64,000 nt of DNA from Saccharomycopsis phalli. Lineage: Eukaryota; Ascomycota; Saccharomycetes; Ascoideales; Saccharomycopsidaceae. Below, piece by piece: positions 17,534 through 61,575 of this stretch. The stretch's first letter is position 1. Each line of letters opens with the position of its first letter. The notes beneath the pieces were generated by a model, which was not told the DNA's origin, ran no database searches, and saw nothing but the letters and a program-made list of their open reading frames with translations. Both the position numbers and the translations under genes were made by a program. Location of the stretch: assembly GCA_020342235.1 (NCBI GenBank), contig CP073213.1, positions 598,501 through 662,500 of the forward strand. Direction: 5' to 3'.

Positions 17534-18372
17534 ATGTCACTTTTCCATAATTTGTAAGTGAATTATAAATATGTTTGATTGTAAATGTATTTGAAAGCAG
17601 TGTATTATAAACGCAGAATGCGATTATAATATTGTGGATTGCCGTTGCTAACTCTAGACATCTTAATAATGTTCCAACAATGAGAACGACCAGAGCATTT
17701 AAACGAGCAAACAACACGACGCTAGAGGCTGGGCAGCTTGATAAGAACTTCTACTATCCTCAAGAGACGCCTAGTAACCCTGTGACGTCGCACAAGGATA
17801 TTCGGAACTTTGCCGAGGCGACATTGGGGTCAGGGTCGGCACTAGCACAAGCGGTGAAGCTTCCACAGGACGAGGATTTGAATGAGTGGTTGGCAGTGCA
17901 TTTGGTGGACTTTTACAACCAGATCAACATGTTATATGGGGCGATTACCGAGTTTTGTTCGCCAAAGAGCTGTCCGAAGATGATTGCCACGAATGAATAT
18001 GAGTACTTGTGGCAGGACCCAAGCCTGAGAAAGCCAATCAGTGTGTCTGCGCCACAGTATGTTGAGAATCTCATGAACTGGATCCAGGGATTTCTTGACG
18101 ATGAGGCGGTGTTTCCGGTGAAGTTGAACGGGACGTTTCCAAGCAAGTTTGTGCCGTTGGTGAAGACGATAATGAAGCGGATGTTCCGAATATACGCGCA
18201 TATATACTGCCATCATTTTGAGGAGATTACGGAGTTGGGGCTCCAGACGCACTTGAATACGAGCTTGAAGCATTTTGTGTTGTTTTCAAAGGAGTTTGAT
18301 TTGATTACCAGTAAGGATTTTGGGCCGTTGGAGGAGTTGGTGAATGTTATGGTGCAAGAAGAGAGAAAGTAG
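17534..18372 (+). CDS. MOB1: MOB1, mitotic exit kinase activator; two exons (17534-17553, 17658-18372), 244 aa
   Basis: Mob1 binds and activates the NDR/LATS-type kinase Dbf2 in the mitotic exit network at spindle poles and bud neck. The body matches yeast Mob1 closely (LNEWLAVHLVDFYNQINMLY, ITEFCSP..CPKMIATNEYEYLW, RIYAHIYCHHFEEI). The zinc-binding Cys2-His2 set comes from C..C in TEFCSPKSCP and the HIYCHH region. The uninterrupted frame has its first ATG only at 17680. An upstream exon ATGTCACTTTTCCATAATTT spliced by GTAAGT (17554) to a TAG acceptor (17657) gives MSLFHNLHLNNVPTMRTTRAFK. This aligns gap-free with the yeast N-terminus as I remember it (MSFLQNFHISPG...RSTRGFK). The C-terminal codons run into an 18-bp tandem array. 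Confidence 0.88.
17554..17657 (+). other. MOB1: MOB1 intron, 104 nt
   Basis: Donor GTAAGT, branch motif GCTAAC at 17647-17652, acceptor TCTAG. Only 5 nt separate the branch motif from the junction. The spliced frame restores the conserved MOB1 N-terminus. Confidence 0.8.
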
Positions 18373-18445
18373 ATGAGCAAGAGAAGGTAGATGAGCAAGA
18401 GAAGGTAGATGAGCAAGAGAAAGTAGATGAGCAAGAGAAAGTAGG
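18355..18445. repeat. 18-bp array starting in the last MOB1 codons
   Basis: The end of the MOB1 coding sequence (AAGAGAGAAAG-TAG) continues as four units of ATGAGCAAGAGAAAGTAG or its G variant, each repeating the stop codon in register. Confidence 0.85.
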
Positions 18446-18539
18446 GGGATGGATATTGGGAAGGTAAGTAGATGGTGTGAGAAGCGAATGTATTTGATTT
18501 CAATGGTGTAGTAGAATGGAGGGAGGACGGTATCGACCA

Positions 18540-19110
18540 ACTGAATGACCAGCCAACTAAGCCAATGTAATTAATCAAGCCAGTTAACCAGCCAAGTCAG
18601 TTAACCAACCAAGCTAGTTCACCAACTAAGGCAATGTAATTAATCAAGCCAGTTAACTAACCAACTAGTGTATTTAACCAAGCCAGTGTAATGTACCAAG
18701 CTAGTGTAATGTACCAAGCCAGTTAACCAGCCATACCAGTATAACCAAACAAATCAGTATAATTAGCCAACCAAGTTAGTATAGTTGAATAACCAAACAA
18801 ACCACTATAACCAAACAAACCAGTATAATTAACCAACCAAACAAACCAGTATAATTAGCCAACCAACCAAGTTAGTATAGTTGACTAACCAACCAAGTCC
18901 CTACAATTAACCAACCAAACCAACCAGAATAACCAACCAAACAGTACAATTGACCAACTGCCCAATTAAACAAGACATATTAACAAGACATATTAACCAA
19001 TCAATAATCAATTGACCAATTAAACCAGCCCAATTGGCCAACCAATTAATCAATTGACCAATTACCAGTCAATTACCAACCAATTAACAAGACAATACCA
19101 TCTACATAGA
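18540..19110. repeat. Degenerate AACCAACCAAGCCAGTATAA-type array
   Basis: About 570 bp of CCAGTTAACCAACC, CCAGTATAATTAACC and CAATTGACCAATTA units between MOB1 and the YBR137W-like gene. No ORF on either strand is convincing. Confidence 0.8.
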
Positions 19111-19174
19111 CTAACCCGGAGCAAATGCACTAATCCCAGCAGCATCGCATAATTTCGCTTCCTCGACCTTGCAT

Positions 19175-19305
19175 TTCTCCCACTGCTTTCTCTTTATTTT
19201 TCCTACTGCTCTCTTATTTTTCCTACTGCTCTCTTTATTTTTCCTACTGCTCTCTTTATTTTTCCTACTGCTCTCTTATTTTTCCTACTGCTTTCTCTTT
19301 CTTTT
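19175..19305 (+). repeat. Pyrimidine-rich array in the 5' leader of the YBR137W-like gene
   Basis: Six to seven units of TTTTTCCTACTGCTCTCTTA type end about 10 bp before the ATG at 19315, so they lie in the promoter or 5' UTR. Confidence 0.85.
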
Positions 19306-19314
19306 CCCTTCAAC

Positions 19315-19833
19315 ATGCCAATTGTACACGCTTCATCCCTTTTCGATGCCTCGTTGCCAGAGCTCGAACACTTTGAAACCTCAGGAACCCAGCTTGCGCA
19401 ATTCAGCGCCAACATCGCGTGGGAACTAGGCCTGTTTGTCCGCGAAAGCATCTTGGCAGAGTTCCCTGACGAATCGGTTGCCATTGATATTTCCACTGCG
19501 TCTGGGCAGGTATTGTTCCGGAGCGTTGTGAACCCTGGATCGACGGTGGACAACGACGAATGGATCCGGCGGAAGCGCAACACGGTTTTCCGGTTTGGCC
19601 GCTCGAGTTTCTACATGGGCAGCTTGATGAGAAGCAAGGGCAAGACGCTTGAGGAGGCCCGGTTTGTGTCGCCGCAGGACTACGTGGACCACGGCGGGTC
19701 AGTCCCGTTGCGGATGCAAGGGTGCGACATTGTGCTTGGGGCACTCACCATTAGCGGGCTCACGCAGGACCAGGACCATTTTCTTGCAGTGACGGGGGTG
19801 CGCGGGTTCGTGGCGCACGGTCATGCACGCTGA
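19315..19833 (+). CDS. YBR137W-like protein (UPF0303 / HbpS-GlcG-like fold), 172 aa
   Basis: Matches S. cerevisiae Ybr137w along most of its length: ESVAIDIST..GQVLFRSV (about 61-80), DNDEWIRRKRNTVFRFGRSS (about 82-101), FYMGS, and GALTISGLTQDQDHFLAVTG near the C-terminus. Family members are small oligomeric cytosolic proteins. Yeast Ybr137w has been linked to the GET/Sgt2 tail-anchored-protein system, but its biochemical role is unclear. Codon 40 is CTG (19432-19434) at a position that is Thr in the yeast protein and often Ser in bacterial relatives (ELG-S/T). Confidence 0.85.
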   Translation: MPIVHASSLFDASLPELEHFETSGTQLAQFSANIAWELGLFVRESILAEFPDESVAIDISTASGQVLFRSVVNPGSTVDNDEWIRRKRNTVFRFGRSSFYMGSLMRSKGKTLEEARFVSPQDYVDHGGSVPLRMQGCDIVLGALTISGLTQDQDHFLAVTGVRGFVAHGHAR

Positions 19834-19871
19834 TATTTGTATAGCCAAGGCACACTATCAATTCTTGTAGC

Positions 19872-21476
19872 ATGAAGTTGGGCCGACGCAAGCCTCCGTC
19901 GTACAAGACCCCCGTGCGGACGGCGCCGCTGCTTCCCGAAGTACCGGCCAGGAAACTCCCCGAGGTTCCACTCAAACAGCAGCTCTTGGCCGAGTTCGAC
20001 GACCTCCGCCCCTTGCAAGGCATCCATGCTTCCAGTCCGTCACTCATGGACAGCATTGCCAGTCCCAAGAAGAAGGCCTTTATTGGCGAGTCGCTTACGG
20101 ACTCCGACGACTCCGACACGGGATTGCAGTTTCTTCGTCAGGATAATCCAAACTTGCGCGACCACGGTACTAAAGACTCGCACACTGTGCTCTATCCGTC
20201 GGTGCTGGAGATGGCGTCCCGCCGCTCAGACAAGTCCGTGTCCCAGACAGACATCACCAACACGACGCTGACGTACGCACAGGACCTTGTCCGGCCGCGA
20301 TTCGCTGTCCGGGCCAAGCGGTTCAGCCAGTTGGCCGACACCAGAATCCAGAACTTGGGCCGTCATCGGCACACGCGCAGCACAATCGAGCACTCGGACA
20401 TTGACGCCAGCATCGAGGAGTACATCCAGTCGCTTCCACCGAGCCTCAGAGTCAGCTCCAGCATGCTCCAGCTGCAGTATCGGCAGTCCTTTGTCAAGTA
20501 CCACATTGTATCCTATTCCTCCACCTCCATGTCCTTGTCCACGAACCCAGGCGAGAAGCACACGTACTGCAAGTACGCAACCGCATACACCGTCGATATC
20601 CAGCTCCCAAAGTACCACGACGAAAAGTTCCTGTTCCTCCACTCCGACCCACATACTCGGCCGCTGGACTATGGGTTCCGGCTCGTGTTTACAGAAAAGT
20701 ACCACCAGGGGAAACCCTCGATTGTCGTGACAAAACGCAGTGCCCTCAAGGGCAACGGCTACGCCATCTGGCTCTTGAAACGCACTGCGCTCCTCAAGAA
20801 CCAGTACGACTCGCTTGAAGACGCCAGCACAGAATACTGGCATGGCGACCTCCATCCAATGACACCGGCCCAGGCCTTTGGCCACGACGCCAGCGAGATC
20901 CAACGGGCCGATCTGCGCCGGATCATGAACCGGTACGCGGCACGCGACTTCAACCATGAGTCCTGGTCTGTGGGGTCGATCCCCAAGTTGAAGCACAACC
21001 CCATGTCGCGGCTCAAAAAGGACTTGTTTGACGACCTGGGCAAGATCCTGCACAAGTACAACGTCTACTTCTTTGCGGCTCAGGACCGTGGCCTCAAGGT
21101 ACGTATTCCCGAAGGCATCAAGTATTCCAGCACTGAGAACCAGGTTCTTGCGGTATTCCGTCCTCACGAGGTGAAGTTGCGCAAGAAGCTTGTCAAGGAC
21201 ATGAAACGTTTGAAGAATAAGAACAACGAGCGGTTCTATGTTAACGACGAGTACAATTATACTTCCATGGACGCGGTCGAGGAGCAGCAGGTGACGTTTT
21301 TCCAGCCGGGCGACGGGATCATTGATAAAAACACGCCGGACGACGATCCGAATGATGCCAAGTTGGGTTGGTTGACGATATACAACGAGCTGTGTCTTGG
21401 TGTGCCGGGGATGTTTGAGTATGTTCTTGGCATGACCTTGGGGGTGGGGTATGAGCGGATTATCAATATGAAGTAG
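19872..21476 (+). CDS. Conserved-looking protein of unknown function, 534 aa
   Basis: I do not recognise a domain. The N-terminal third is basic, Pro/Ser-rich and probably disordered (MKLGRRKPPSYKTP; several SP/TP sites; SDSDDSDTG). From about residue 190 onward it looks globular, with aromatic-rich beta segments (SFVKYHIVSYSSTSMSLS, DYGFRLVFTEKYHQGKPSIV). Late in the protein comes a charged helix (EVKLRKKLVKDMKRLKNKNN), then WLTIYNELCLGVPGMFEYVL. There is no signal peptide and no clear membrane helix. It follows the YBR137W-like gene by only 38 bp on the same strand. In S. cerevisiae the gene next to YBR137W is YBR138C, an uncharacterised protein of similar size; orthology is a guess. The last codons are echoed in the downstream array. 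Confidence 0.75.
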   Translation: MKLGRRKPPSYKTPVRTAPLLPEVPARKLPEVPLKQQLLAEFDDLRPLQGIHASSPSLMDSIASPKKKAFIGESLTDSDDSDTGLQFLRQDNPNLRDHGTKDSHTVLYPSVLEMASRRSDKSVSQTDITNTTLTYAQDLVRPRFAVRAKRFSQLADTRIQNLGRHRHTRSTIEHSDIDASIEEYIQSLPPSLRVSSSMLQLQYRQSFVKYHIVSYSSTSMSLSTNPGEKHTYCKYATAYTVDIQLPKYHDEKFLFLHSDPHTRPLDYGFRLVFTEKYHQGKPSIVVTKRSALKGNGYAIWLLKRTALLKNQYDSLEDASTEYWHGDLHPMTPAQAFGHDASEIQRADLRRIMNRYAARDFNHESWSVGSIPKLKHNPMSRLKKDLFDDLGKILHKYNVYFFAAQDRGLKVRIPEGIKYSSTENQVLAVFRPHEVKLRKKLVKDMKRLKNKNNERFYVNDEYNYTSMDAVEEQQVTFFQPGDGIIDKNTPDDDPNDAKLGWLTIYNELCLGVPGMFEYVLGMTLGVGYERIINMK

Positions 21477-21770
21477 GATGTGAGAGTGGGTTGAGTGGTT
21501 GAGTGGTTGAGTGGTTGAGTGGTTGAGTGGTTGAGTGGTTGAGTGGTTGAGTGGTTGAGTGATTGAGTGGATTGAGTGATTGAGTGGATTGAGTGATTGA
21601 GTAATTGAGTGGATTGAGTGGATTGAGTGATTGAGTGATTGAGTGATTGAGTGATTGAGTGATTGAGTGGATTAAGAGGAGGTTGTAATGAGTGGATGAT
21701 CATTATAAAGTAGAATGTGTGAGAGTGGATCAATATGAAGTAGGTTGTATGTGAGAGTGGATTAAAGTGG
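21477..21770. repeat. GTGGTTGA-type array after the 534-aa gene
   Basis: Eight-bp GAGTGGTT and GAGTGATT units fill 21485-21670. At 21725-21765 a segment reading ATCAATATGAAGTAGG..GTGAGAGTGG repeats the last codons, stop and early 3' flank of the gene (21462-21490). A third, diverged version is at about 21693-21720. Confidence 0.85.
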
Positions 21771-21959
21771 GAAGTTGTAGTTTGCTGCTCGAGTCCTCGG
21801 AAACATCGATTCACTTTCACCACTAAATAAAACGTCATTGCATATACTGGATATTTGGCGTTCCGTTGAATAATACACAAGAATACGAGTTTGCTATACA
21901 GGTTTGCTCATGCATGTAATGAAGATGAAAGGTGTAATGAAAATGAAAGGTTACCTCAA

Positions 21960-22170
21960 AGATTTATTCACCGTCTTTTTGGTTCTTAGGAAATGGTCTA
22001 GCCAGTCCATTTCATCTACACAATAACACCGTCCTTCTCATGACCTCCAATCATTGTCAAGGTCTTCATTGCTCTCCAGATATAAATAGTCAGACTATTC
22101 TCTGAATAGTCAAGCGAATATATGTTAGCTATTTTACAAACATCGTATCCTAGTTACTATATTACAATGC
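21960..22170 (+). repeat. Dispersed repeat R3, copy c
   Basis: CACCTCC/GACCTCC, ATAAATAGTCAGACTATTCT, TGAATAGTCAAGCGAATATA and TTAGCTATT are shared in order with copy b. It is followed 160 bp later by R1 copy d, and copy b is likewise next to an R1. Confidence 0.6.
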
Positions 22171-22278
22171 ACATTCTATATAGATACCATTGACATGAGC
22201 TCAAGATCAAAAGCCAACATGGAATGTAGGTGCTACAATGCCAATGGAATGAATTTTTCATCAACCTGGTACAATTGT

Positions 22279-22294
22279 TTTAGGACGTCCTAAA
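22279..22294. repeat. 16-bp perfect palindrome
   Basis: TTTAGGACGTCCTAAA, isolated between R3 copy c and R1 copy d. It could be a dimeric factor site or chance. Confidence 0.5.
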
Positions 22295-22324
22295 TCAATA
22301 CGCCAAGTGATGTAGATACATACC

Positions 22325-22555
22325 TTTATACAACTATGATTAATCAAGTCACCTCTAAAGATCTAGGCAAAAGCTCATTGCCCCTCCAATGCTCATTACA
22401 CACATTTACAAGCTCTAGTCAAAAGTTTATCTCTGTTGAAGAGTTTTCTTTCGGCAACTACATAGCAGCACCGTCATTAGTCGTAGACGGCAAGTATAAA
22501 TCTCTGGAGCCATATAGCCATAGCCTTGTATGAATATTATTATTAAATAAAAAAG
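22325..22555 (+). repeat. Dispersed repeat R1, copy d
   Basis: Nearly identical over 150 bp to 26535-26690 (CAAGTCACCTCTAAAGATCT, AGCTCATTG.CCCTCCAATG, GTCGTAGACGGCAA). It ends TATAAATCTCTGGAGCCATA, then TAGCCATAGCC. Confidence 0.85.
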
Positions 22556-22559
22556 ATTA

Positions 22560-22800
22560 ATCAAGGCATTAAGACATAATCGATACATAATCAAGACATA
22601 ATCAATACACTAATCAATACATTAATCAATACACTAATCAATACATTAATCAAGACATTATCAAGGGATTATCAAGACAGTATCAAGGGATTATCAAGAC
22701 ATTATCAAAAGATTATCAAGACATTATCAAAGGATTATCAAGACATTATCAAAGGATTATCAAGACATTAAGGCATTATCAATACACACCAAGACATCAA
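22560..22800. repeat. ATCAATACATTA / AAGACATTATCA array, 3' side of LSM4
   Basis: Two nested unit types: AATCAATACACT/ATTA units, then AAGACATTATCAAAGGATT units. It immediately follows R1 copy d and ends about 150 bp from the LSM4 stop. Confidence 0.85.
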
Positions 22801-23479: not shown

Positions 23480-23885
23480 TATAGTCAGTGTAAAGGCTAA
23501 TCAGCTAGTCAGCTACAATTATTAGATATAATTTATTAGATATAATTAATTAGATATAATTAATTAGATACAATTAATTAGTTATAACTAATTAGGTACA
23601 ACTAATCACAACTAATCAGCTACAACTAATCAGCTATTTAAGATCTAACCAGATATTCAAGACCTAGTTCAACTACACAAAGCTTAGTTCACCTAATCAA
23701 GATCTAATTTCAATTATTCAAGACTATTCCAATATTCAAGACTATTCCAATATTCAAGACTATCCACTATTCAAGACTATTCCAATATTCAAGACTATTC
23801 CAATATTCAAGATCTAATTTCAGTTATTCAAGGCTATCCAATATTCAAGATCATTCCAATATTCAAGACTATCCACTATTCAAGA
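23480..23885. repeat. TATTCAAGACTATTCCAA array between LSM4 and CUE1
   Basis: TTAGATATAATTAA units (23515-23580) pass into AACTAATCAGCTAC units, then about ten TATTCAAGACTATTCC units that end within 10 bp of the CUE1 stop. The LSM4 promoter must be confined to roughly 23427-23500. Confidence 0.85.
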
Positions 23886-23889
23886 CCTA

Positions 23890-24426: not shown

Positions 24427-24659
24427 GTTGCAATGACAAGTGAAACTGATGATGTTTTACCGCATGGTGCTAGAGGCACTACATTGCGGCACGGTATTGC
24501 GGCACTGCATTGCTAACGGCACGCCATACAACATCACACACAACATCACACACAACATCACAGCATGATAATCATAAGCACTTGCCATATCGTACTACAC
24601 AATTCTCAAATCATTCTGTATACACCTATAGCTACTTGTGCATCACAACAACCTGCTTA

Positions 24660-25813
<1,154 letters not shown>

Positions 25814-26479: not shown

Positions 26480-26690
26480 TGTACAGTTAAGAGGGCTACT
26501 GTTCTAGTACACTGGGAAGGAGGTGACTCAAGTCACCTCTAAAGATCTAGGCAAAAGCTCATTGACCCTCCAATGCTCATTACACACATTTACAAGCTCT
26601 AGTCAATAGTTTATCTCAGTTGCAGAGTTTACTTTCGACGACTACATAGCAGCACCGTTCTTAGTCGTAGACGGCAAAGTATAAATCTTT
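26480..26690 (+). repeat. Dispersed repeat R1, copy e
   Basis: CTAGTACACTGGG, GACTCAAGTCACCTCTAAAG, CAATGCTCATTACACACATT, TTGCAGAGTTTACTTTCGAC and CTTAGTCGTAGACGGCAAAG match copies c and d. The TATAAAT tail then becomes the 23-bp array. Confidence 0.85.
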
Positions 26691-26990
26691 CTGGGAGCCT
26701 AGTATAAATCTTTCTGGGAGCCTAGTATAAATCTTTCTGGGAGCCTAGTATAAATCTTTCTGGGAGCCTAGTATAAATCTTTCTGGGAGCCTAGTATAAA
26801 TCTTTCTGGGAGCCTAGTATAAATCTTTCTGGGAGCCTAGTATAAATCTTTCTGGGAGCCTAGTATAAATCTTTCTGGGAGCCTAGTATAAATCTTTCTG
26901 GGAGCCTAGTATAAATCTTTCTGGGAACCTAGTATAAATCTTTCTGGGAGCCTAGTATAAATCTCCTCCGGAAACCTAATATAGCTACAC
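26680..26990 (+). repeat. 23-bp TATA-containing array upstream of YCS4
   Basis: Twelve near-perfect units (TATAAATCTTTCTGGGAGCC + TAG) and one diverged unit, followed by the usual R1 ending (TATAGCTACACCCTTGAATA). It is clearly an amplification of the R1 tail. Each unit holds TATAAAT. The array ends about 135 bp before the YCS4 ATG. Confidence 0.9.
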
Positions 26991-27059
26991 CCTTGAATAA
27001 ATATCATCAATAATAAACCACTTGTACCGAGGTACACTTTCGACCGTTGCCAGCACATA

Positions 27060-35047: not shown

Positions 35048-36361
35048 ACAGTACCCTTTTTTATATTGTATACTAGGAATAGGGATGAGTATTGACTACA
35101 GTGTAGTGACGTTGTGTTTTATTGCGCAAATTAGTAGCCCCTTGATCGCCATATGATTGATGGCATGAAAAAAAAAATGCCTTTGCAAGAATGGGTCTAT
35201 AAAGCCACTATCGATTGTGGCTGCTTGCCCCATCAGCCTTTTGACCGTCGATTATAGAATTCGCAGAAAAATAGCGGGCCAATCTTGCCGTCGTGTTGTA
35301 GCCATGGCCATATGCCCCCAGAGACTTGCTGATGTTTGCACAGTGTAGTGCCAATTAACCGCCCACAGATAAATTAATTGAATGGTTCTTGGGTCTAAGA
35401 ATATGCTTGTGTATTTTGTATATTTGAAGACGATGAAATGGGGGACTTTGCCCTCCTTTTATAATGTTTAATGCGTCGATGCTGCGTCAACTACCATCTG
35501 CACTCACTACAATAGGAAGTTAAAGAGCATCAGTAACTAGTCAAGCGATGGAAACCAATGGAAACCAGTGGATAGTCAGTGGATAGAAGCCTGTGGATAG
35601 AAGCCTGTGGATAGAAGCCTGTGGATATGAAACAATGGACGTGTAACAGTGGATATGGAAACCAAGCAGATCGAAACCGGTGGATATAATCAATGGATAT
35701 ATAGTCAATGGATATGTAACAGTGATATGTAGCAGTGGATACGGTAACCAAGTATATTGAAACCAGTGGATGTAAAGTCAGTGGAAATGAAATAGTGTAT
35801 GTGATAGCTAAGTAGATAGAAACCAGTGAACATGAAATCAGTGGATACGAAATAGTGGACAAGAAGTCAGTAAATATGTAACGGTGAATATGGTAACCAA
35901 ATAGATAGAAACCAGTAGATATATAGTCAGTGAGTAATAGTCAGTGTATATAAAGTCAGTGTATATAAAATAGCGGACATGAAATAGTGAGTATGGTAAC
36001 CAAGTAGATAGAAACCAGTGGATATAAGGTCGGTGGATATGAAATAGTAAACATGCAATAGTGAATATAGTCAGTGATATCGTCAGTGATATAGTCAGCG
36101 AACGTGGATAGCTATTCCAGCCATTGATTCATACTTGGACAAAATTTCACAACTGAAACTACAACTAAATACTCGGAAATGAAATAAACAAGCCCAGAGA
36201 TAATTGGACAACCCTGGACGGCAATTAACCAACGCACACTACAAGATAATCCCTGAAACAATATTAAACAGTCTGGAACGACGCCCTCAAGTACAATTGT
36301 AAACTCAACCCCCAAACAGCCTGGTACCAATGCAAACGACAAAGCCTCAACCAGCCCAACT
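35048..36361. other. 1.3-kb convergent gap with repeats
   Basis: An R1-like tail fragment lies on the minus strand at about 35290-35350 (reverse complement AAGTCTCTGGGGGCATATGG, CCATGGCTAC). Then 35540-36100 is a degenerate array (GTGGATAGAAGCCT; GAAACCAGTGGATAT; AGTCAGTGGATATG units). No gene recognised. Confidence 0.65.
35540..36100. repeat. GAAACCAGTGGATATAT-type degenerate array
   Basis: Over 550 bp of short related units (ATAGAAACCAGTGGATAT, AAGTCAGTGGATAT, GAAATAGTG) between the glycine-zipper gene and SWD1. Confidence 0.8.
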
Positions 36362-47604: not shown

Positions 47605-47755
47605 TTTATTTTACCATACCACAGAGACTGGCAAATTACCTTATTTCACCATACTACGCACTCGACCCATCACCTTATTTCACTATACCACACACTCGAC
47701 CAATCACCTTATTTCACCATACCACACACTCGACCAATCTACCTCATTACAAGAG
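47605..47755. repeat. Array 3' of OXA1 (CACACTCGACCAATCACCTT type)
   Basis: About four units of 30-34 bp combining TTATTTCACCATACCACACA and CTCGACCAATCACC. It ends about 20 bp from the OXA1 stop codon. Confidence 0.88.
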
Positions 47756-50550: not shown

Positions 50551-50562
50551 CAATGTAGGCCC

Positions 50563-52635
50563 ATGGCACATAACCAATATATAGCGCGCGAGTCTGGCAA
50601 ATCAGCCATGAGCGAGGACAAGGGCGTACCACAGCTAGTGTTTACAGGGAGTATTTCCGGGTCGTCATCTGCTGTCAGCAAGCCGACTGTCCAGGGGAGT
50701 TTTGTCAACCATGAGAATTTGACCTCCTTGTCGGGGATTACTTATTCTGACGGCAATGTTTTGGGCAACGACAGTGATAGTGAGTCGGATGGGGAGTCGA
50801 ATGAGAAGGGAAATGGGAAGGAACGAGAAGAGGTGGCGGGAGCGAAGGTGTTGGAAACTAAGGAGTTGGAAACTAAGGAGTTGGAAACTAAAGAGTTGCC
50901 GGAGTTGCCGAAGGAGTGTAGTTTGGGTGGTTCCGATGGTCCAGTGAGTGATGATATACCAAGGGATGTATTGAATGAATCAGGGAATTTGTTGAATGAA
51001 TCAGGGAATGTTTTGAATGCATCCAAGGATATTCCGAATATATCCAAGGACATTCCGAATATACCCAAGGATATTCCAACTATATCCAAGGACTTTCTGA
51101 ATATACCCAAGGATATTCTTATTGAACCAAGCAATTCATCAACCGACTCGCCAATCAATTCATCAACCATCTCACCAAACAATCCACCACAGATTATCCA
51201 AGACACAGAAATCAATCCAGACTTGCCTGGGCCCCTGGAACTCGCACATTCCAAAAATATGCCATTGGCCCCCACAGAAAAGTCTGATAAACCAGTCATA
51301 ACCTCCGAGAGCAAGGACCGAATCATCAACCGTGTCCAGACCCCCGTCAAGTCGATGCTGGACCTTAAGCGACAGGAACAGAAGTTGAAGCAGTTGGAGA
51401 GCGGTCGGCAGCAGCACAAACAGGACCCGAACAACATGCCGTTTGACTTCCAGCGGTTCCTTTTGTACCTCAAGGCCAAGAGCGCTGATTCGGTTGTGCG
51501 ATACTTGAAGTCGTTCTTGATTGCCTTCTCCAAGAAAAACTGGACCGTGAGCGAGCAGGTCAAGTTGATTAGCGATTTCAAGAACTTCATTTACGACCGG
51601 ATGTTGTCAGTGCCTCCATTCAGCAAAATGAACCAGACAGAGTTCATCAACTGCCAGGAGGGCATGGAGAAGCTTATCATGAACCGGCTCTATGACCAGG
51701 TGTTTTCGCCCGTGATCCTGCTGGCGAAATTGAACAAGTCTCACAAGCAGGATATCCTCAAGGACGAGTTGCTCAAGAACCAGATCCTCCGCTTCTCGTG
51801 GGTGACACACGTGCATCTTGACCTAGATGCCGCGATTGTGACCAAAGGCGAGTCGTTCCTTTCGTTGGCAATTGCCGAACTCATCAAGCTCAACAACTAC
51901 CGTTCGCCTCGAGACAAGATCATCTGTATCTTAAACTGCTGCAAAGTGATCTTTGCCATGCTCAAGAACTCGTCGCTCCAGACAAATGCCGACTCCTTCA
52001 TTCCGTCGTTGATCTATGTCGTGCTCAAGACCGACGAGGACCTCCGCTTGAACTCAAACATCAGCTATATTGAGCGGTTCCGCAACGAAGACGGACTCTC
52101 TGGTGAGGTCAGCTATTACGTTAGCAGTCTCTGGGCGGTGATTGGGTTCATTGAGAATCTCAACAAGGACAGCTTGACCATCACTGAGGAAGAGTGGGAT
52201 CGCTACATGAAGCCATATGAGGAGACCAAGGATGGGCCTGTCGATGTAATCATTGAGCATCCGACCAGTGAGACAAGCGAGCCGAATCATTTCTCGCCAC
52301 TTCTGTCGCTTCAGTCGTTCTTTCAGTCGGGGTTGGCCGGAATTGAAAACTACAAGTTGCTAGACGATGATAAGGGGACTGTCACCACCCAGACTCTTGT
52401 GGCACCGCAGCAGGATTCCGAGATCTTGACGACGCCGACGATTCTCAAGTTTAACCGGAACAAGGCAGAGAAGTTGGGTCTGCAGGCGTTTGAGCAGGAC
52501 AAGGCGCAGCTTATTGAGATGTTGGCGACGATGTTTCCTACGTTGGACAGGGAGATAATATCTGAGGTTGTTGTGGCGAACAATGCGCGGGAAAATGTGT
52601 GTGTTGACAGTTGTTTGAAGTTGATGGGCGAGTGA
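50563..52635 (+). CDS. VPS9: VPS9-like Rab5 guanine-nucleotide exchange factor, 690 aa
   Basis: GEF for the Rab5 GTPase Vps21 in endosomal/vacuolar transport. The N-terminal 240 residues are repeat-built and disordered (ETKELETKEL units; NISKDIPNIPKDIP units). A helical bundle starts at about 288 (FDFQRFLLYLKAKSADSVVR). The VPS9 core spans about 360-560: VFSPVILLAKL, LRFSWVTHVHLDLD, KIICILNCCKVIF. TNADSFIPSLIYVVLK (about 474-489) carries the catalytic Asp. The C-terminal CUE domain (about 645-690, LIEMLATMFPTLDREIISEV) binds ubiquitin. A second in-frame ATG at 50608 (MSEDKGVPQLVF) may be the true start, because the first leaves only 12 bp after the upstream gene. Confidence 0.9.
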   Translation: MAHNQYIARESGKSAMSEDKGVPQLVFTGSISGSSSAVSKPTVQGSFVNHENLTSLSGITYSDGNVLGNDSDSESDGESNEKGNGKEREEVAGAKVLETKELETKELETKELPELPKECSLGGSDGPVSDDIPRDVLNESGNLLNESGNVLNASKDIPNISKDIPNIPKDIPTISKDFLNIPKDILIEPSNSSTDSPINSSTISPNNPPQIIQDTEINPDLPGPLELAHSKNMPLAPTEKSDKPVITSESKDRIINRVQTPVKSMLDLKRQEQKLKQLESGRQQHKQDPNNMPFDFQRFLLYLKAKSADSVVRYLKSFLIAFSKKNWTVSEQVKLISDFKNFIYDRMLSVPPFSKMNQTEFINCQEGMEKLIMNRLYDQVFSPVILLAKLNKSHKQDILKDELLKNQILRFSWVTHVHLDLDAAIVTKGESFLSLAIAELIKLNNYRSPRDKIICILNCCKVIFAMLKNSSLQTNADSFIPSLIYVVLKTDEDLRLNSNISYIERFRNEDGLSGEVSYYVSSLWAVIGFIENLNKDSLTITEEEWDRYMKPYEETKDGPVDVIIEHPTSETSEPNHFSPLLSLQSFFQSGLAGIENYKLLDDDKGTVTTQTLVAPQQDSEILTTPTILKFNRNKAEKLGLQAFEQDKAQLIEMLATMFPTLDREIISEVVVANNARENVCVDSCLKLMGE

Positions 52636-52740
52636 AGTGAGGAGAGGACGTGAAGTGAGGGGAGGAGGGGGAGGACGTGAAGTGAAAGTGAGTGAGAAAG
52701 TGAAAAGTGAGAAAGTGAAAAGTGAATGACAAATTGCTAA
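52625..52740. repeat. GAAGTGAGGGGAGGA array starting at the VPS9 stop
   Basis: GAGTGAAGTGAGGAGAGGAC then GTGAAGTGAGGGGAGGAG and GAAAGTGA units begin with the last codons (GGC GAG TGA) of VPS9. Confidence 0.75.
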
Positions 52741-52793: not shown

Positions 52794-53100
52794 ACAAATC
52801 CTACAGTATAATATATCTAATCTCTCTTTAACGATTAGCAACTCGACCAAATCCTACAGTATAACATACCTAATCTCTCTTTAACGATTAGCAACTCGAC
52901 CAAATCCTACAGTATAACATACCTAATCTCTCTTTAACGATTAGCAACTCGACCAAATCCTACAGTATAACATACCTAATCTCTCTTTAACGATTAGCAA
53001 CTCGACCAAATCCTACAGTATAACATACCTAATCTCTCTTTAACGATTAGCAACTCGACCAAATCCTACAGTATAACATACCTAATCTCTCTTTAACGAT
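52794..53100. repeat. 53-bp tandem array including the aminotransferase stop
   Basis: Six copies of a 53-bp unit (contains AAATCCTACAGTATAACATA and CTAATCTCTCTTTAACGATT). The copy next to the gene contains the last seven codons and stop of the aminotransferase (minus strand). The others repeat the same CTAATCTCTCTTTAACGATT segment. Confidence 0.93.
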
Positions 53101-54341
53101 TCTTTAGCAACCTCGCCCCAAATTTTAATACCCTCTAGGAGCCGCTGCTCATCTTCAAAACTCACACTGAGCCGGAAACTGCTGCTGCCCCAGTCACGTG
53201 GGTTACCCGCAACTTCAAAGTTGTCGCCGCCAGCAAGTCTGAGGCCTCGGGCCTTGGCCAAATCAACAATAGCCCTACCATCATATTCAGAAGGAAGCGT
53301 CACCCAGATAAAATACCCGCCATCTCCACCATGATACGTAGTGCCCTTGGGAAGATACTGCTGGATCGCGTCCACCGCTGTTTTGGCACGTGACCCGTAC
53401 ACGGTGCAAAAATCGCAAATCAACGTGTCCAAGTCACCTGACCTGATCATCTCGCCAACAATGTTGGCATTGAGCTGTGATGGGGATCCTCCGGAGACGT
53501 TTGCGCCCCCCTGGGAAAGTTGGAACGCCAATTTATCTGTAGCGGAGATTTGGAATCCTGTTCTGATTCCCGGGGCAATCAATTTTGAAAAGGTGAGGTT
53601 GGTCAAGGTGTTGCCAAAGGTGTTACCCGCCGGCAAGGTTTCGCGGTCCAAAATGTCGAACCGTTTGATTTTCTGGGCGCCGGAATAGTCCAAGAGATCG
53701 TATACGTCGTCGGTGATGATGAGCATGTCGTATTTGCGGGCCAAGTCAATGAGCCTGCGCCGGGTGTGTTCAGGGAGGGTAACGCCTCCCGGGTTGGAGA
53801 AGGTGGGCACGCACCAAAAGACGTAGCGGTACACTTTTTTCTGCGGGGCATGGTCAATTAGGCGGAGGGAGTCGTTGGCCGGGTCACTGTCCTCGTAGCG
53901 TTTGATTTGCAGCTCGAGCCACTGCAAGTCAATGTTGCCGCTGTTTTCGTCCACTGCAGTGATTTTCCCGCCAAACCCTGCGTCGATGAAGCAGTCGTTG
54001 ATCAAGTAGTATGTCGGTGAGACGATAAACGCCTGTCTGGTATAACCTGTGTGTGCGAGCGTGCTCTGGAGCAAGGCATTGAGGATGCCATACGACGCGC
54101 CGCCGGTCAAATTGATGTGTTCTGGCTGGGTGTGGGAGGAGAAAATCCGGTTGGACCAGCGGGCGATTTCCAGACGCACCCAGAGGGCGCCCTGGTCGGA
54201 ACCGTATGTGAGCGGGTGCCTGCTTTGCGGGTCGGCGTCGTAGTCACGGTGTTGTGGCGCGAGGACTGCGTTTGTTGCCTTGAGGATTGCTTGGCGGGGA
54301 AGGAGGGTGTAGGACGGGTGTCCGACGAAAAAGTCAATCAT
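53082..54341 (-). CDS. PLP-dependent class I/II aminotransferase (YER152C-like), 419 aa
   Basis: Fold-type I aminotransferase resembling yeast YER152C and fungal 2-aminoadipate/aromatic aminotransferase-like enzymes. Seen: HINLTGGASYGILNAL (phosphate-side loop), SPTYYLINDCF, N183 in PTFSNPGG, D211 and Y214 in TDDVYDLLDY (cofactor ring contacts), K253 in LTFSKLIAPGIRTG (Schiff-base lysine), and Arg in SSFRLSVSFED (substrate carboxylate). All catalytic residues are present. There is no targeting signal. The substrate is unknown. The C-terminal codons form part of a downstream 53-bp array. Confidence 0.88.
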   Translation of the reverse strand: MIDFFVGHPSYTLLPRQAILKATNAVLAPQHRDYDADPQSRHPLTYGSDQGALWVRLEIARWSNRIFSSHTQPEHINLTGGASYGILNALLQSTLAHTGYTRQAFIVSPTYYLINDCFIDAGFGGKITAVDENSGNIDLQWLELQIKRYEDSDPANDSLRLIDHAPQKKVYRYVFWCVPTFSNPGGVTLPEHTRRRLIDLARKYDMLIITDDVYDLLDYSGAQKIKRFDILDRETLPAGNTFGNTLTNLTFSKLIAPGIRTGFQISATDKLAFQLSQGGANVSGGSPSQLNANIVGEMIRSGDLDTLICDFCTVYGSRAKTAVDAIQQYLPKGTTYHGGDGGYFIWVTLPSEYDGRAIVDLAKARGLRLAGGDNFEVAGNPRDWGSSSFRLSVSFEDEQRLLEGIKIWGEVAKESLKRD

Positions 54342-54724
54342 TGGGGAGAGTGTTTGGGGAGGGGGTATTTATATGGTTAGGAACTGTGGCGCGGCTGACA
54401 AATTACGGGGTGGTATTAATTATGCTAATCGGTCTATATCATTATTCGTCCAAGTAACGTATGTTGCGGCATTGCGGCAAAGGCTGCGGTACTAGTCTGA
54501 TGTGTTGCTCTTGTCTTTTGCCTGTTCTATCTTTGGATTAATTTCTTGTCTTTCTGTCTAATTGTGATTTTAATCATCTTATCTTAATCATCTTAATCAT
54601 CTTCAGCTTCTGTTTAATCTTCTCTCTGTCTAATCTTCTCTCTGTCTAATCTTCTCTTTCCAATCTTCTCTTTCCAATCTTCTCTTTCTAATCTTCTCTG
54701 TCTAATCTTCTCTTTCCAATCTTC
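54342..54724. other. Gap aminotransferase / UBP3
   Basis: 54342-54540 holds the aminotransferase promoter (no clear motifs). 54545-54740 is a CT-rich array that runs into the UBP3 C-terminal codons. Confidence 0.65.
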
Positions 54725-54775
54725 TTAATCCTGTCTAATCTTATCTCTCCTCTCCCTATCCAATCTTTCGTAAAG
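54575..54775. repeat. ATCTTCTCTTTCCA array merging with the UBP3 3' end
   Basis: TAATCTTCTCTCTGTC and CAATCTTCTCTTTC units (14-16 bp) about ten times. The same pattern (CTGTCTAATCTTATCTCTCC) forms the last codons of UBP3. Confidence 0.8.
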
Positions 54776-56203: not shown

Positions 56204-56275
56204 GTCATATGAGTACACTGTTCCATTCACCTATATATTCGCCCAACCTCGCGGAAAATTAGCACGGGCGGGTAA

Positions 56276-56771: not shown

Positions 56772-56816
56772 GTTGCTCTGCGATTCTCAATTCCCCGAGA
56801 TATGCGTCAAGCGTGT

Positions 56817-56916
56817 CACGTGATGTTTCCTTACGTGTCACGTGTAACCATTTACTCGTGATATTCTTGTCACATGACAAGTCATTTTCATGTATGTGGT
56901 ATCCTTTTGTCACGTG
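56817..56916. promoter_or_regulatory. Three CACGTG boxes upstream of SAP30
   Basis: CACGTG at 56817-56822, 56839-56844 and 56911-56916 (all GTCACGTG), 46-145 bp before the SAP30 ATG on the minus strand. A related GTCACATGAC is at about 56870. Confidence 0.55.
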
Positions 56917-57904
56917 ATGAACAACTTGCATGCTACGGGTTTTATGTATTGTCGTTCCTTATATGGTCGCCTCAGTTTCCTGTACCTAGTCGCGTGACTA
57001 GTGGCATTGATTATGGCCATTTCTTGTATATGGTTCCTTTAATGTCCAGCAGCATCATACGTGATCAGATCTCAAGACTGCTGGAAGTTCTAGGTGGTTT
57101 CTAGGCAACTGTATATAAATGATGGATTCAGTATTGGTTGTATTAATATATGTATAATTGGTGTCAACATTATCCTTCTCTCGTTGTGGTTCATCATCCT
57201 CTCTTTGTTCATCCTCTTTGTTCATCCTCTTTGTTCATCCTCTTTGTTCATCCTCTCTCATTTTTGTTTGTCAAAACAATACTCTAGTCATTCCACATCT
57301 TCATTTCACGCCTAGATATACCACAACAATATCCTGGTTTCACACTACTCAAGATACCTCAGATACAAACTCCTGCAGGTCCCACTTGCTCTACCTGTGC
57401 ATATCATCTGACGTCAGATGTTGACACCATAGACCCATATGGGTGGTACATTTGGATTACGCCTGAGTAATTACAGTACAACTACCAGTAATATAGTAAT
57501 CTTCTTGGTCCGACCGTGATGTATTCTAAGATTATGAGCAGGTTTACATTTCTGCCAGGTCATTATATACCAGCTTCATAACCTAATCAAAGTGAGGTCA
57601 TTTACCAATGCACAATGCATACAATGTAATATTAAGCAAATGGTTAACACTATCCATAAACAACAATGGCGAGCCAATTTTCACTGTAAACTCAAACGGA
57701 CTTGCACAATGTCATTTAGAGGATGGTGCATGAGATTCGCAATGATAAAAATACGAGTTGTCAAGGCCACTTGCATAGATGCTCGTCTCCATTTCCAGAA
57801 CTTCACTTTAACCTTCGCATCAAACTAGTAAAAAAGTCATATAGACCAATCACACTACAAATTAACTGCCTTTGTAATTCATAATATATATCATCACACG
57901 CCAA
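56917..57904. other. 1-kb gap SAP30 / chitin synthase, no gene
   Basis: A 13-bp array TCCTCTTTGTTCA (four units, about 57200-57255) and a short palindromic CATCTGACGTCAGATG (about 57407-57422) are the only structures noticed. The rest is AT-rich unique DNA. Confidence 0.6.
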
Positions 57905-60900
57905 CTAATGTTTCCATGTCAAGATTCTTGACAAAAGATACGACATGGAGCCAATGAATCTCACTGCAGCCAAGACAGCCACCAACCACAAGATCACCGT
58001 CAAATACGTGGTGGCATTCGTCCCACCAGTTGGATCCTTGTCAGAGGCGTCTCTACTGGCTGGAGCACCACCAATGTTCAACACAAGAGCAATCAACACT
58101 CCATTAGTGACACACCAGAAAAGCACAACCATGGACCGCACAAACGCATAGTACTCGTTCTTGTCGTCGGCATTTTGCTTCTTGCGCTCTCTCTCGCGTT
58201 TAGCAATTTCGTCTGGGTCGGTTGGCTCCTCTTCGATCTCAGTACCAGGCACTTTTCCAATTAGAGAGGCCTCCTGCTCAAACAACTTGTCCACCTCCTC
58301 GGCAGTAGTTGGAATATCAAGCACAATACCTTTACCATCATCAGCCTTTTTAACAGAACCCAAGCTAGCCACCGAACCGTCGTCGCCCTTTGTTCCCCAG
58401 GAAATATCGTGGATGTTGCAGAAGGCGTAGATATTGAGGATGTTGATGTACATTGGCGAAAGAAGGAGGTACTGGATGAAGGAAGTGAACATGTGCCATG
58501 GCTGGCCGTAGAGAAACGATGCCAGGAAGTATAGGATGTAAGTTGACCCCATGGAGATGACCAAGTCTCTAAAGTTTCCGTTTTTGGCAAAGTCGACAAA
58601 CGTCGGGGAGTGTCCGCCGGACTTTGCAGTGTTGATGACGGTGCGGATACTCTTGATTGTGAGCCAGATGGCGCAAAACAACATGTAGCCCATCATGAGG
58701 GCATAGAACAAGGTGACGACCCAATAAGCCTTTCTGGCGCCCTTGGGCTTGTTGCCAAAGGCAAAAATAAACACGCTCATGGTGCAGGCAATGTAGATCC
58801 AGAGGAGAATGACGGCAAGCACTTTTCCAGGAGCAAAGTTCATGAAACCGTCATTGGCAGAGACTCCAAGGGTCAAGATGCGAAACACCAAGAAGTAGGA
58901 TCCAACGGAGAACCAGGAGATGATGATGTTGACGGTGTTGTAGACGAACTCGATCTGGAGGGCAAGCTTGCGCAAAAGCGAGTGTCTCAGGCGGTATATC
59001 TTGCCAAAGTGCACCACTGCATAAATGGCTGCAAAAAACGAGCCGTTTAGCCATCTGCGCCGCTGGGAAATGAACTCGGGCAACTCGTCTGGGACGTCTG
59101 TTGCTGCTGCTGCGCTTTTCACGTAGCGCAAGACCCAGTTTGAGTTTTTCTTGGTGACAATCTCAAAGCACAAGATCCGGTCCTCGGCCAAGTACATGTT
59201 GTTTGCAAACAAGTCGTGCTTCTCCTCGGAGTTGTGCAACGTCTCGCCCTTGAAATACGCCTCCAAAGGTCCATGGCCCGTGATCTCGTCGTTCTTGAGT
59301 GCCTCAAAACGGTATGCGGAAAACGCACCAGGCAACACGGAGATGAATCCAAACACGGACTCGGTGGGCTTGTCGAGGATGTTGGACATTTTGTACTCAA
59401 AGTTCTGGCCGGCCACAAGCAATCCCAGGAAGAAACCGTTGTACAAGAACTTGCCCTTTGGACCCAACATGGCCTTGATTTCGCCACAGGCACCTCCTAC
59501 GTTGGGGTTGCGGTGGAACTCGCGCCACAATTCGTAGATGGAACGCTTTGTCGGCTCGGTTCCCGCATCAAAGAGTACGATAATGTCTGGCAGAAGGGCC
59601 GGAGCAAGAGCCTGGAAGCACCAACGATGGGAGTTGATTTTCTTCTGGTTTTTCTCCTTCAAAGCAAACACCAACTGCACCGGGATGATGTCATCATACT
59701 CCAAGTTGACTGTATCAGTCACCGACTTGATGTTGGCAAGCGTGGTGTGCTCATACAAGTGGCACGTGACGTCCTTCTTCAACACCTTGGACTGGGCAAA
59801 ACCTTCTTGGTACACGCCCAAGTTGGCCAAAAGAGCTCTAGCCCGCGGGTTAATTTTCGTGCGGCCGTCACTGACCACGGCAACCACGACTTTTTTCCAT
59901 CCCTCGGGTCCCCAATACTCTTTGTCGCCTTTTGTGCAGAGGTACTTGAGGTTGTCGAAAATGCCCTTGAGGGTGCGGCCAAGCAAGATATCGTCCTCGT
60001 TGTACATGGTGACCACGATCATCATCTCGCAGGGCGACCGTGGGATCTTGAAGAGCTGCTGACGGAGCGTGAACTTGTCAAACAAGAACCGTTCGGGCTC
60101 AGACGTCACTGCGGTGTACTTCATGCGGACAAATTCGGCCGCCTGTCGCGACGGGTCGGTCGAGATCTTGTAGCGGGCCGCAAGCCGGTTTGGGATCGGG
60201 CAGTCGAGCGCAAGATTCCCGAGGAAGAGTGCATCGGCGTTGATCTGCTCCTCGTCGTCGTCTTCCTCTGGCTGGAGAAGTTGTTGCTCGTCAGGAGCCG
60301 TTTGATTCTGTTCAAACTGGCCCTGGATCTGGTTCTGCATGCCCTGATCGATTCCCGAGCCAATGTTCTGCGAGATGAACACGCCCTGGCTGAATGGAGC
60401 TGCGGCGCCGGTCTGGCTCTGAGCCAACGAGAGCGGGTTCATCTGATTGTCGTAGAGTGCAATTGACAGCGAGAGCGGGTTGACATTGTACGAGTCGCCT
60501 GAGATTGGCTGAAAGTCTGGGTTTTCCGGATCGCCCTGGAACAACGACGCGAGGTTGGTGTTGGACGAGTACTGATTGGCCGGGTACTGGTTGGCGTACT
60601 GGTTTAAGCCATGTGCCGGGGGGTCGTACGAGTATCCTGGCGACAAGTGGGAGTCGTTTGCCTGGATTGCGTGCTGGAGAGCAGCGTCGCTTTCTGAGAA
60701 TGGGTCTGCATGGAACGGGTTTTCGTATGAGTAGGAGCTTTCGACAGGTTGGAGATCAAAAGGGTCTGGCAATGGGCGAGCTGCCAGTTGGTCGAGCAGG
60801 GGGTGAGTCTGGTCATTTGGCAGTGGATGAGTGTGTTGATTTGGCAAAGGACGAGAGTGTTGATTTGTCAGTGGATGAGAATATTCATTTGGCAAAGGAC

Positions 60901-61327
60901 GAGTGTCTTCATTTGTCAGTGGATGAGAATACTCATTTGCTGGGTGGGAATACTCATTTTGGGAATACTCATTTGTCAACGGCATTGGTGCAACATTGCT
61001 CAATTCATACAGCTGATTATACCCCTGGCTCCCCTCCCCATGCTGCCGATGCTCATACGGAATATCCGTCCCACCAAACGTCCCCCCGGTGTGGAACGGG
61101 CCGCCTGTAGGCTGGTACGACTGCTGCGAGTGGGCGGTGTAGTGCGGGTCGAGAGGCGCATGGACGTCCTGCGGAGGAGGAGGAGGCGGAGGAGGAGGCT
61201 GGGAGTGGCCGACACGAGGATCATAGGCTTGGGAAGGCGGGTCTGACCCGGGGTTGTGGTGCAACTGCTCCGGCAATTGTGGCAATTCCGGTGCGTCGTC
61301 CAAGCTGGAATATTGTTTTTTGCTCAT
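57905..61327 (-). CDS. Chitin synthase (class I/II, GT2), 1140 aa
   Basis: Plasma-membrane enzyme polymerising GlcNAc from UDP-GlcNAc; yeast class I/II members make repair or septum chitin. The N-terminal 370 residues are disordered (Pro stretch PPPPPPPPP, NEYSHPLTNE repeats). Chitin_synth_1N: RYKISTDPSRQAAEFVRMKY. Catalytic core: MIVVTMYNEDDILLGRTLKG, VVSDGRTKINPRARALL, FDAGTEPTKRSIY, GGACGEIKAM, AEDRILCFEIV and QRRRWLNGSFFA (about 756-767). At least six C-terminal membrane segments follow. The length and N-tail are like yeast Chs1 (1131 aa), so class I is favoured. Downstream neighbour in tandem with another CHS (248 bp apart). Confidence 0.93.
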   Translation of the reverse strand: MSKKQYSSLDDAPELPQLPEQLHHNPGSDPPSQAYDPRVGHSQPPPPPPPPPQDVHAPLDPHYTAHSQQSYQPTGGPFHTGGTFGGTDIPYEHRQHGEGSQGYNQLYELSNVAPMPLTNEYSQNEYSHPANEYSHPLTNEDTRPLPNEYSHPLTNQHSRPLPNQHTHPLPNDQTHPLLDQLAARPLPDPFDLQPVESSYSYENPFHADPFSESDAALQHAIQANDSHLSPGYSYDPPAHGLNQYANQYPANQYSSNTNLASLFQGDPENPDFQPISGDSYNVNPLSLSIALYDNQMNPLSLAQSQTGAAAPFSQGVFISQNIGSGIDQGMQNQIQGQFEQNQTAPDEQQLLQPEEDDDEEQINADALFLGNLALDCPIPNRLAARYKISTDPSRQAAEFVRMKYTAVTSEPERFLFDKFTLRQQLFKIPRSPCEMMIVVTMYNEDDILLGRTLKGIFDNLKYLCTKGDKEYWGPEGWKKVVVAVVSDGRTKINPRARALLANLGVYQEGFAQSKVLKKDVTCHLYEHTTLANIKSVTDTVNLEYDDIIPVQLVFALKEKNQKKINSHRWCFQALAPALLPDIIVLFDAGTEPTKRSIYELWREFHRNPNVGGACGEIKAMLGPKGKFLYNGFFLGLLVAGQNFEYKMSNILDKPTESVFGFISVLPGAFSAYRFEALKNDEITGHGPLEAYFKGETLHNSEEKHDLFANNMYLAEDRILCFEIVTKKNSNWVLRYVKSAAAATDVPDELPEFISQRRRWLNGSFFAAIYAVVHFGKIYRLRHSLLRKLALQIEFVYNTVNIIISWFSVGSYFLVFRILTLGVSANDGFMNFAPGKVLAVILLWIYIACTMSVFIFAFGNKPKGARKAYWVVTLFYALMMGYMLFCAIWLTIKSIRTVINTAKSGGHSPTFVDFAKNGNFRDLVISMGSTYILYFLASFLYGQPWHMFTSFIQYLLLSPMYINILNIYAFCNIHDISWGTKGDDGSVASLGSVKKADDGKGIVLDIPTTAEEVDKLFEQEASLIGKVPGTEIEEEPTDPDEIAKRERERKKQNADDKNEYYAFVRSMVVLFWCVTNGVLIALVLNIGGAPASRDASDKDPTGGTNATTYLTVILWLVAVLAAVRFIGSMSYLLSRILTWKH

Positions 61328-61434
61328 GATGAAAATCGGGCCAGAGGCCAGGTATTAAATGTTGCAAAAAGGGGCTGGACCAAATCCTTGGACGCGGTTT
61401 ACGACACTGTGCAGAAACATGCATTAAGAAAAAA

Positions 61435-61575
61435 AAATATAGCCATCATCGGCCATCGCCATCAGCCACTGGTCAGTGCCATCAGCCATCGCCATCAGCC
61501 ACCACCAGCCACCGCCAATTGCCTGCATCAACAGCAATTACTCGCATCTGCATTCCCGCATCAACATTCCCGCAT
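61435..61575. repeat. CATCAGCCATCGC array between the two chitin synthases
   Basis: GCCATCGCCATCAGCCACC and CATTCCCGCATCAAC units. It ends at the stop codon of the second CHS, whose final codons (on this strand CATCAACGGCCAATGGC) resemble the units. Confidence 0.7.

Follow-up and report, generated by a model that had tools for sequence, protein, structure and literature searches.

Tandem arrays and genes of the window

The stretch analysed here (the window) comprises 64,000 nucleotides of Saccharomycopsis phalli contig C2 (C2:598501-662500; the assembly totals 14.15 Mb in 8 contigs). Its genes, among them MOB1, HEM15, VPS9, CUE1, OXA1, CLC and a second chitin synthase gene, are interspersed with tandem repeat arrays, several of which cross or adjoin stop codons. 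From these it had been proposed that gene-specific arrays start at or copy the 3′ ends of genes, through a repeated local process in 3′ flanks (the original prediction). The window was compared with independent DNA of the same assembly, namely 200 kb of contig C1 and 50 kb of contig C3 (C3:200001-250000), supplemented for base composition by one 6-kb piece each from C3 (1.2 Mb) and C5 (0.3 Mb). Arrays were indeed found much more often beside stop than beside start codons, but this asymmetry is mainly a depletion of arrays ahead of starts.

Arrays were defined as rows reported by Tandem Repeats Finder (TRF) with a score of at least 50, with overlaps merged, and genes as ATG-to-stop open reading frames (ORFs), picked greedily by length with introns ignored. 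The main gene set comprised ORFs of at least 150 amino acids (aa): 25 in the window, 71 in C1 and 19 in C3. The 96 genes referred to below are those of the window and C1. ORFs of at least 100 aa were used for the coverage of intergene classes and the start-placement test, and those of at least 120 aa for the coverage of distance classes and the placement null. The array census, the coverage-by-distance steps and the median values of G+C content at third codon positions (GC3) come from an earlier gene set, called with a codon model, which undercalled AT-rich genes (8 in C3, compared with 20 found by the length-only caller). The stop/start asymmetry was present with either set. PDB or Pfam searches covered twelve of the window proteins; the remaining gene names are background assignments or were given with the original prediction.

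The arrays located at named genes of the window, all delimited by TRF, are the following.

8785..9024, minus strand: array of 26-bp units, 8 bp away from the CLC stop
18362..18444, plus strand: 18-bp array straddling the MOB1 stop, with 11 bp in the coding sequence (17680-18372)
19173..19309, plus strand: pyrimidine-rich array of 21-bp units, its end 5 bp ahead of the start codon of a 172-aa HbpS-like gene (a counter-example)
21484..21670, plus strand: 8-bp array (GAGTGGTT), 7 bp past the stop of the 534-aa gene
21698..21762, plus strand: 30-bp array in the same 3′ flank, with a unit like the last codons of the 534-aa gene (TRF and alignment)
23697..23886, minus strand: array of 35-bp units, separated by 3 bp from the stop of CUE1, a CUE-domain gene
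24659..24725, minus strand: array of 19-bp units across the HEM15 stop, with 31 bp in the coding sequence
47606..47748, minus strand: array of 34-bp units, separated by 25 bp from the OXA1 stop
52632..52666, plus strand: 18-bp repeat of 1.9 copies straddling the VPS9 stop (4 bp in the coding sequence)
52795..53101, minus strand: array of 53-bp units across the aminotransferase stop, with 20 bp in the coding sequence
54609..54725, minus strand: array of 28-bp units that reaches 1 bp into the coding sequence of the ubiquitin hydrolase (UCH) gene at its stop, with a unit resembling the gene's own tail
61543..61579, minus strand: 14-bp array straddling the second chitin synthase stop (5 bp in the coding sequence)

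These positions agree with the original prediction to within a few tens of bp. Units containing terminal codons or stops, also predicted, were found where arrays straddle stops, i.e., at MOB1, HEM15, VPS9, the aminotransferase, the ubiquitin hydrolase and the second chitin synthase. At the 534-aa gene, which was included in this group, the first array begins only past the stop. The CUE1, OXA1 and CLC arrays, said to end within 10-20 bp of the stop, were placed by TRF at 3 bp (CUE1), 8 bp (CLC) and 25 bp (OXA1). The prediction named 10 of 26 window genes; in the others the nearest 3′ array is at least 108 bp off, or there is none before the next gene. The array at 19173..19309, which precedes a start codon and is possibly a 5′ untranslated region (UTR) array, was absent from its list. 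MOB1 was identified by a PDB match (2hjn) whose alignment stops at residue 222 of 230, short of the array, and the alignment of HEM15 with yeast ferrochelatase similarly stops at residue 353 of 368, before the straddling array. The 534-aa protein gave no Pfam match at 1e-5.

Abundance and class of the arrays

The window contains 67 merged arrays, which occupy 8,079 of 64,000 bases (12.6%) and 27% of non-coding bases. The 161 arrays of the C1 block make up 9.1% of all and 13.0% of non-coding bases, and in the C3 block only 10 arrays were found (0.9% of all and 0.6% of non-coding bases). A mononucleotide shuffle, performed once per block, gave 0 arrays for the window, 3 for C1 and 0 for C3. The 228 arrays of the window and C1 have a median period of 21 bp (5th-95th percentile 11-57, longest 99, and 8 arrays under 10 bp). 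By unit size and head-to-tail order they are minisatellites (units of roughly 10-100 bp). With a median period of 24 bp, the coding arrays lack the very long coding units that we take to define megasatellites.

The arrays are not confined to 3′ flanks, as the original prediction would have it, since they also fill divergent intergenes (14.4% coverage, compared with 14.9% in tandem and 18.3% in convergent ones) and 5-6% of coding sequence, where they are nearly always in frame. The period is divisible by 3 in 71 of 77 coding arrays and in 46 of 137 intergenic ones.

The predicted gene-specificity of the units largely held. Two units were searched genome-wide for exact matches and each was confined to its own locus (the two-unit pattern of the array at 21484..21670 has no other site in the genome), although one of these two arrays has a homologous array elsewhere with a different unit. 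Among pairs of units from different intergenes, 269 of 11,170 (2.4%) scored above the shuffled 99th percentile, where 1% is expected, and within one intergene 12 of 155 pairs did so. The units thus appear slightly alike across loci without forming one family, and a single spreading satellite is ruled out by their locus-specificity and weak between-locus similarity. One convergent intergene (window 35579-36098) holds five adjacent arrays, several pairs of which have related units, as if from one locally diversified seed.

Arrays are scarce ahead of start codons

At a distance of up to 50 bp, 26 of the 96 genes have an array beside the stop alone, 2 beside the start alone, 2 at both ends and 66 at neither (p = 3e-6). 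Arrays straddle 11 of the 96 stops (11.5%) and none of the 96 starts. In C1 alone, with arrays within 100 bp considered, 23 of 71 genes were stop-only, 3 start-only, 1 both and 44 neither (p = 8.8e-5), and therefore the stop-side excess replicates outside the window, with no equality between the two gene ends. The window alone gave 7 stop-only versus 1 start-only gene among 25 (p = 0.07). TRF cut-offs of 40, 80 and 120 left the direction of the asymmetry unchanged, and the window alone never fell under 0.05. In 58 of the 96 genes there is no array within 100 bp of either end.

The distance profiles differ on the two sides. Downstream of stops, coverage is 18% at 1-50 bp and 21-28% from 50 to 500 bp, with no peak at the stop, where the straddled share (11.5%) is below even the 1-50 bp value, while upstream of starts it is 2.6, 4.8, 8.2 and 11.4% in successive 50-bp steps and reaches ∼20% by 300-500 bp. 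Within 100 bp of starts, 13 arrays were seen compared to 20.5 expected under random placement (P(≤) 0.007). By distance class, arrays cover 14% of the window bases lying up to 200 bp from starts and 39% of those up to 300 bp from stops, with 27% in mid and 16% in far positions; the corresponding C1 values are 6.5, 20, 13 and 8%.

Enrichment at stops was examined by randomisation. A placement null, which cannot cross gene boundaries, clips straddling arrays and lowers the expected coverage at edges, overstates stop enrichment because of this edge effect, and was therefore replaced by an edge-free rotation null of modest power, in which the array pattern of each of 65 tandem and convergent intergenes was rotated at random. 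No excess was detected with the latter close to stops: coverage was 0.207 within 50 bp, where 0.210 is expected, and 0.232 within 100 bp, where 0.213 is expected (p 0.27). Neither the distance steps nor the rotation null shows a coverage peak at the stop. Convergent intergenes are informative on a stop effect because starts play no part there, and the 22 examined had no near-stop excess at 50, 100, 200 or 300 bp (p 0.94, 0.52, 0.26 and 0.19; at 200 bp, 0.275 observed versus 0.250 expected).

Units do not generally copy gene tails

To compare units with gene tails, each unit was aligned with the last 93 bases of its gene and ranked among all tails, a rank in the top 5% being taken as a match. 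Straddling arrays matched their own tail in 8 of 11 cases, as they must. Among arrays within 300 bp of a stop but not straddling it, matches were found in 3 of 59, the chance level, and gene-tail copying as a general seed is thereby ruled out for these arrays. Thus, the claim that arrays start at or copy gene 3′ ends stands for the straddling arrays and fails for the others. One of the three matches is the second array of the 534-aa gene (21698..21762), whose unit scored 25 against its own tail (the 95th percentile for other tails is 17); the prediction had pointed to this array. The position of arrays at stops may be a matter of geometry: an ORF entering a non-coding array would soon meet a stop, and arrays touching a gene end would thus sit at the stop.

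Strand skew of arrays and transcription ends

Of the 27 arrays lying no further than 50 bp from a stop, 25 have a G-rich sense strand (10/10 in the window, 15/17 in C1), and the mean skew is 0.55. Beyond 50 bp and up to 300 bp, 24 of 42 rows are G-rich (an array between two stops may count twice), and by 200-300 bp the skew has fallen to about zero. In tandem intergenes, the mean sense skew from the stop side to the start side is 0.37, 0.12, 0.13 and −0.42 in successive quarters (36, 15, 22 and 13 arrays); the arrays of the start-side quarter are C-rich (2/13 with positive skew). In convergent intergenes, 9 of 10 arrays in the first quarter and 7 of 15 in the last are positive, with no flip to negative. 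Coding arrays have no skew (sense G skew positive in 38 of 77). A weaker skew of the same sign was found in non-array 3′ flanks (0.24, down to 0.01 by 300-400 bp), and the strand asymmetry of the units is 0.48, compared to 0.33 for random non-coding pieces. Local composition and the strand asymmetry of units account for most of the skew, with some excess remaining. The strand bias would follow gene-end composition (sense G at the stop, C at the start), exaggerated because the units are strand-asymmetric.

The main rival explanation is based on this skew. RNA:DNA hybrids over a G-skewed 3′ end would expose the non-template strand, and slippage or break repair would then create arrays, i.e., instability coupled to the end of transcription. 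Judged by their G-rich non-template strand, 25 of the 27 stop-proximal arrays would lie at R-loop-prone gene ends. The fading of the skew by 200-300 bp, a weak 3′ excess that may remain within 300 bp, and the lack of a consistent G skew after stops in the array-poor C3 block are also in line with this explanation. However, neither the unskewed coding arrays nor the C-rich arrays on the start side of tandem intergenes conform to it. G runs are few (34 GGG per 3,311 bases of stop-proximal arrays), 3′ flanks without arrays are already skewed by ∼0.2, arrays are common in divergent intergenes, and convergent intergenes have neither a flip of skew at the second stop nor a near-stop excess. We therefore consider transcription-end instability unlikely. 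The R-loop link suggested in the original prediction agrees with the sense G skew beside stops, and conflicts with the coding and start-side arrays; judging from base composition, a role of R-loops is possible, not favoured.

Arrays inside copies of a dispersed element

Two arrays of the window were found inside relics of a dispersed element of ∼346 bp.

26486..27015, plus strand: element relic, interrupted by the array 26678-26964 (84% / 81% identity)
26678..26964, plus strand: 23-bp array of 12.5 copies (TRF) inside this relic, 157 bp ahead of the condensin (Cnd1) gene in a divergent intergene
13361..13658, plus strand: second relic, in a divergent intergene, holding the 51-bp array 13440-13546, which aligns to element ∼146-198

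The first relic has 84% identity to element positions 86-314 and, past the array, 81% to 285-346. The array is an expansion of an element segment bracketed by AGTATA direct repeats at element positions 285 and 309, 24 bp apart. In two other element copies that were read, the same segment is single-copy and AGTATA-bracketed. A homologous array in C1 contains the same segment and has a 17-bp unit. The second relic is a weaker case: the unit of its array scored 38-42 against the element (maximum 36 in 200 shuffles), and the whole relic aligns in order. Both arrays sit in divergent intergenes and not in 3′ flanks.

In total, six element relics were recognised in the window (4260-4552, 11531-11576, 12273-12370, 13361-13658, 22346-22545 and 26486-27015), and the other window arrays overlap no element copy found. 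With 40 of 275 candidates scored, the element had at least 40 other genome matches, one in the window, spread across contigs. It may be SINE-like, an LTR or of another class. The two copies read elsewhere align over about 348 bp, and one of them ends in a (TTA)n-like tail.

Minisatellites are born from short direct repeats according to the slippage model developed in the yeast and human literature. Array 26678-26964, and that one array only, fits this mode of birth, as judged from the single-copy state with 6-bp direct repeats that is probably ancestral. The arrays described here share with such minisatellites their tandem units (median 21 bp), and differ in their scarcity just before genes and in what seems an unusual density for a yeast (27% of window non-coding bases).

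Array density differs between genomic regions

The window and C1 share a median GC3 of 0.67, compared with 0.32-0.52 per gene in C3. An AT-rich composition (about 40% GC, with GC3 mostly 0.4-0.5) and a near absence of arrays characterise the C3 block and the C3 and C5 composition samples. In the C3 block, which is gene-dense (70% coding), no array lies in the 100 bp beside either end of the 19 genes at score 50, and at score 40 one of the 19 genes has one. Across the window and C1, arrays cover 7.5 and 9.6% of the flanks in the two lowest GC3 classes (22 genes below 0.6) and 22-26% in the 74 genes above 0.6. GC3 and flank arrays are correlated (0.24, p 0.019; 0.45 with C3 added), a link that rests on pooling and on C3, being absent in the window alone (rho 0.11, p 0.59) and marginal in C1 alone (0.22, p 0.068).

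Origin of the array pattern

The likeliest account, which we regard as probable, is a dense birth of minisatellites in GC3-rich regions, filtered by selection. Short direct repeats would seed tandem duplications at many sites, via slippage or unequal repair, and purifying selection would remove arrays disrupting a promoter, a 5′ UTR or a reading frame. In-frame coding arrays and scarcity before starts are the outcome to be expected if arrays arose in all kinds of sequence and selection then acted on them, and with selective removal elsewhere the surviving arrays would look gathered behind genes. That more recombination or repair in GC3-rich regions causes their flanking arrays is a guess.

Several observations weigh against birth filtered by selection. 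Near-stop coverage exceeds mid-intergenic coverage in both the window and C1. The rotation null gave an excess within 200 bp (0.263 observed, 0.216 expected, p 0.028) and 300 bp of stops (0.257 observed, 0.210 expected, p 0.012). Exclusion of the 200 bp ahead of starts raised the expectation to 0.231 within 200 bp (p 0.105) and to 0.223 within 300 bp, where the excess persisted (p 0.048). Under the placement null, coverage in 53 array-bearing intergenes was 0.273 versus 0.193 expected within 100 bp of stops (p 0.005) and 0.305 versus 0.250 within 200 bp (p 0.013), of which excess promoter exclusion took away about a third to a half. A weak 3′ excess within 200-300 bp of stops is thus possible. 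Arrays within 10 bp of a start were found in 6 genes, compared to 2.5 expected, when ORFs of at least 100 aa were counted, and in 2 genes of at least 150 aa. Stop-proximal arrays are also more skewed than unit-length pieces of non-array 3′ flanks (26/28 positive versus a baseline of 0.65, p 0.0009), even among strongly skewed pieces (23/24 versus 0.80, p 0.035). Moreover, coding array coverage falls as GC3 rises (rho −0.25, p 0.014), and the ancestral state is known for only two arrays, for the second via a weak alignment.

Two further explanations attribute the pattern to foreign origin or to function. The window and C1 might be introgressed GC-rich segments with a repeat habit of their own, like chromosome C of Lachancea kluyveri, for which a large introgression has been reported (PMC9246145). 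The GC3 contrast with C3 and the AT-richness of the additional C3 and C5 samples would suit such an origin, which is nevertheless distinctly doubtful, as HEM15 and the condensin gene have one genome match each, the dispersed element of the other contigs is also present, as old copies, in the window and C1, and GC3 varies between genes inside C1. The same single matches leave a mixed or hybrid assembly unsupported as the source of the GC difference. Positive selection for arrays as functional 3′ UTR or terminator elements seems very improbable: some arrays do occupy such positions, in a consistent sense orientation near stops, but different genes mostly have different units, 58 of the 96 genes do without a nearby array, and so does the AT-rich block. 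In a more speculative reading, GC3-rich domains might continually make minisatellites that the transcribed strand orients, with hybrid-driven sense-G arrays gradually rewriting 3′ UTRs and last codons and AT-rich domains spared; we hold this to be a long shot.

In open-access literature, the titles and abstract openings considered contained no description of this array pattern in yeasts. Related systems resemble it in single respects. Budding yeasts are known to have GC3-rich chromosome domains (PMC9246145), and the present genome likewise varies in GC3 from one large region to another, but a link between domains and minisatellite density does not appear in the passages covered. In Saccharomyces cerevisiae, ∼25% of promoters reportedly hold tandem repeats, which are enriched in nucleosome-free promoter regions (Vinces et al., cited in PMC3899988); these are likewise intergenic, whereas the arrays described here are scarcest just upstream of starts. 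Candida glabrata also has a repeat-rich genome, with megasatellites (PMC4556013) whose repeats are very long compared to the median unit of 21 bp observed here. Tandem repeats derived from transposable elements (PMC3389668, PMC6947457) are comparable to the two window arrays inside element copies; the remaining window arrays lie outside the copies found.

Because this genome combines regions rich in arrays with others almost devoid of them, and has sense-oriented arrays at gene ends, it is a natural test bed for the birth and removal of minisatellites, and would allow the effects of recombination, transcription and selection to be separated. A few protein C-termini and 3′ flanks consist of tandem repeats. 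Within coding sequence, a 608-aa ORF at window 706-2532, with a GC3 of 0.41 (low for the window), contains five arrays.

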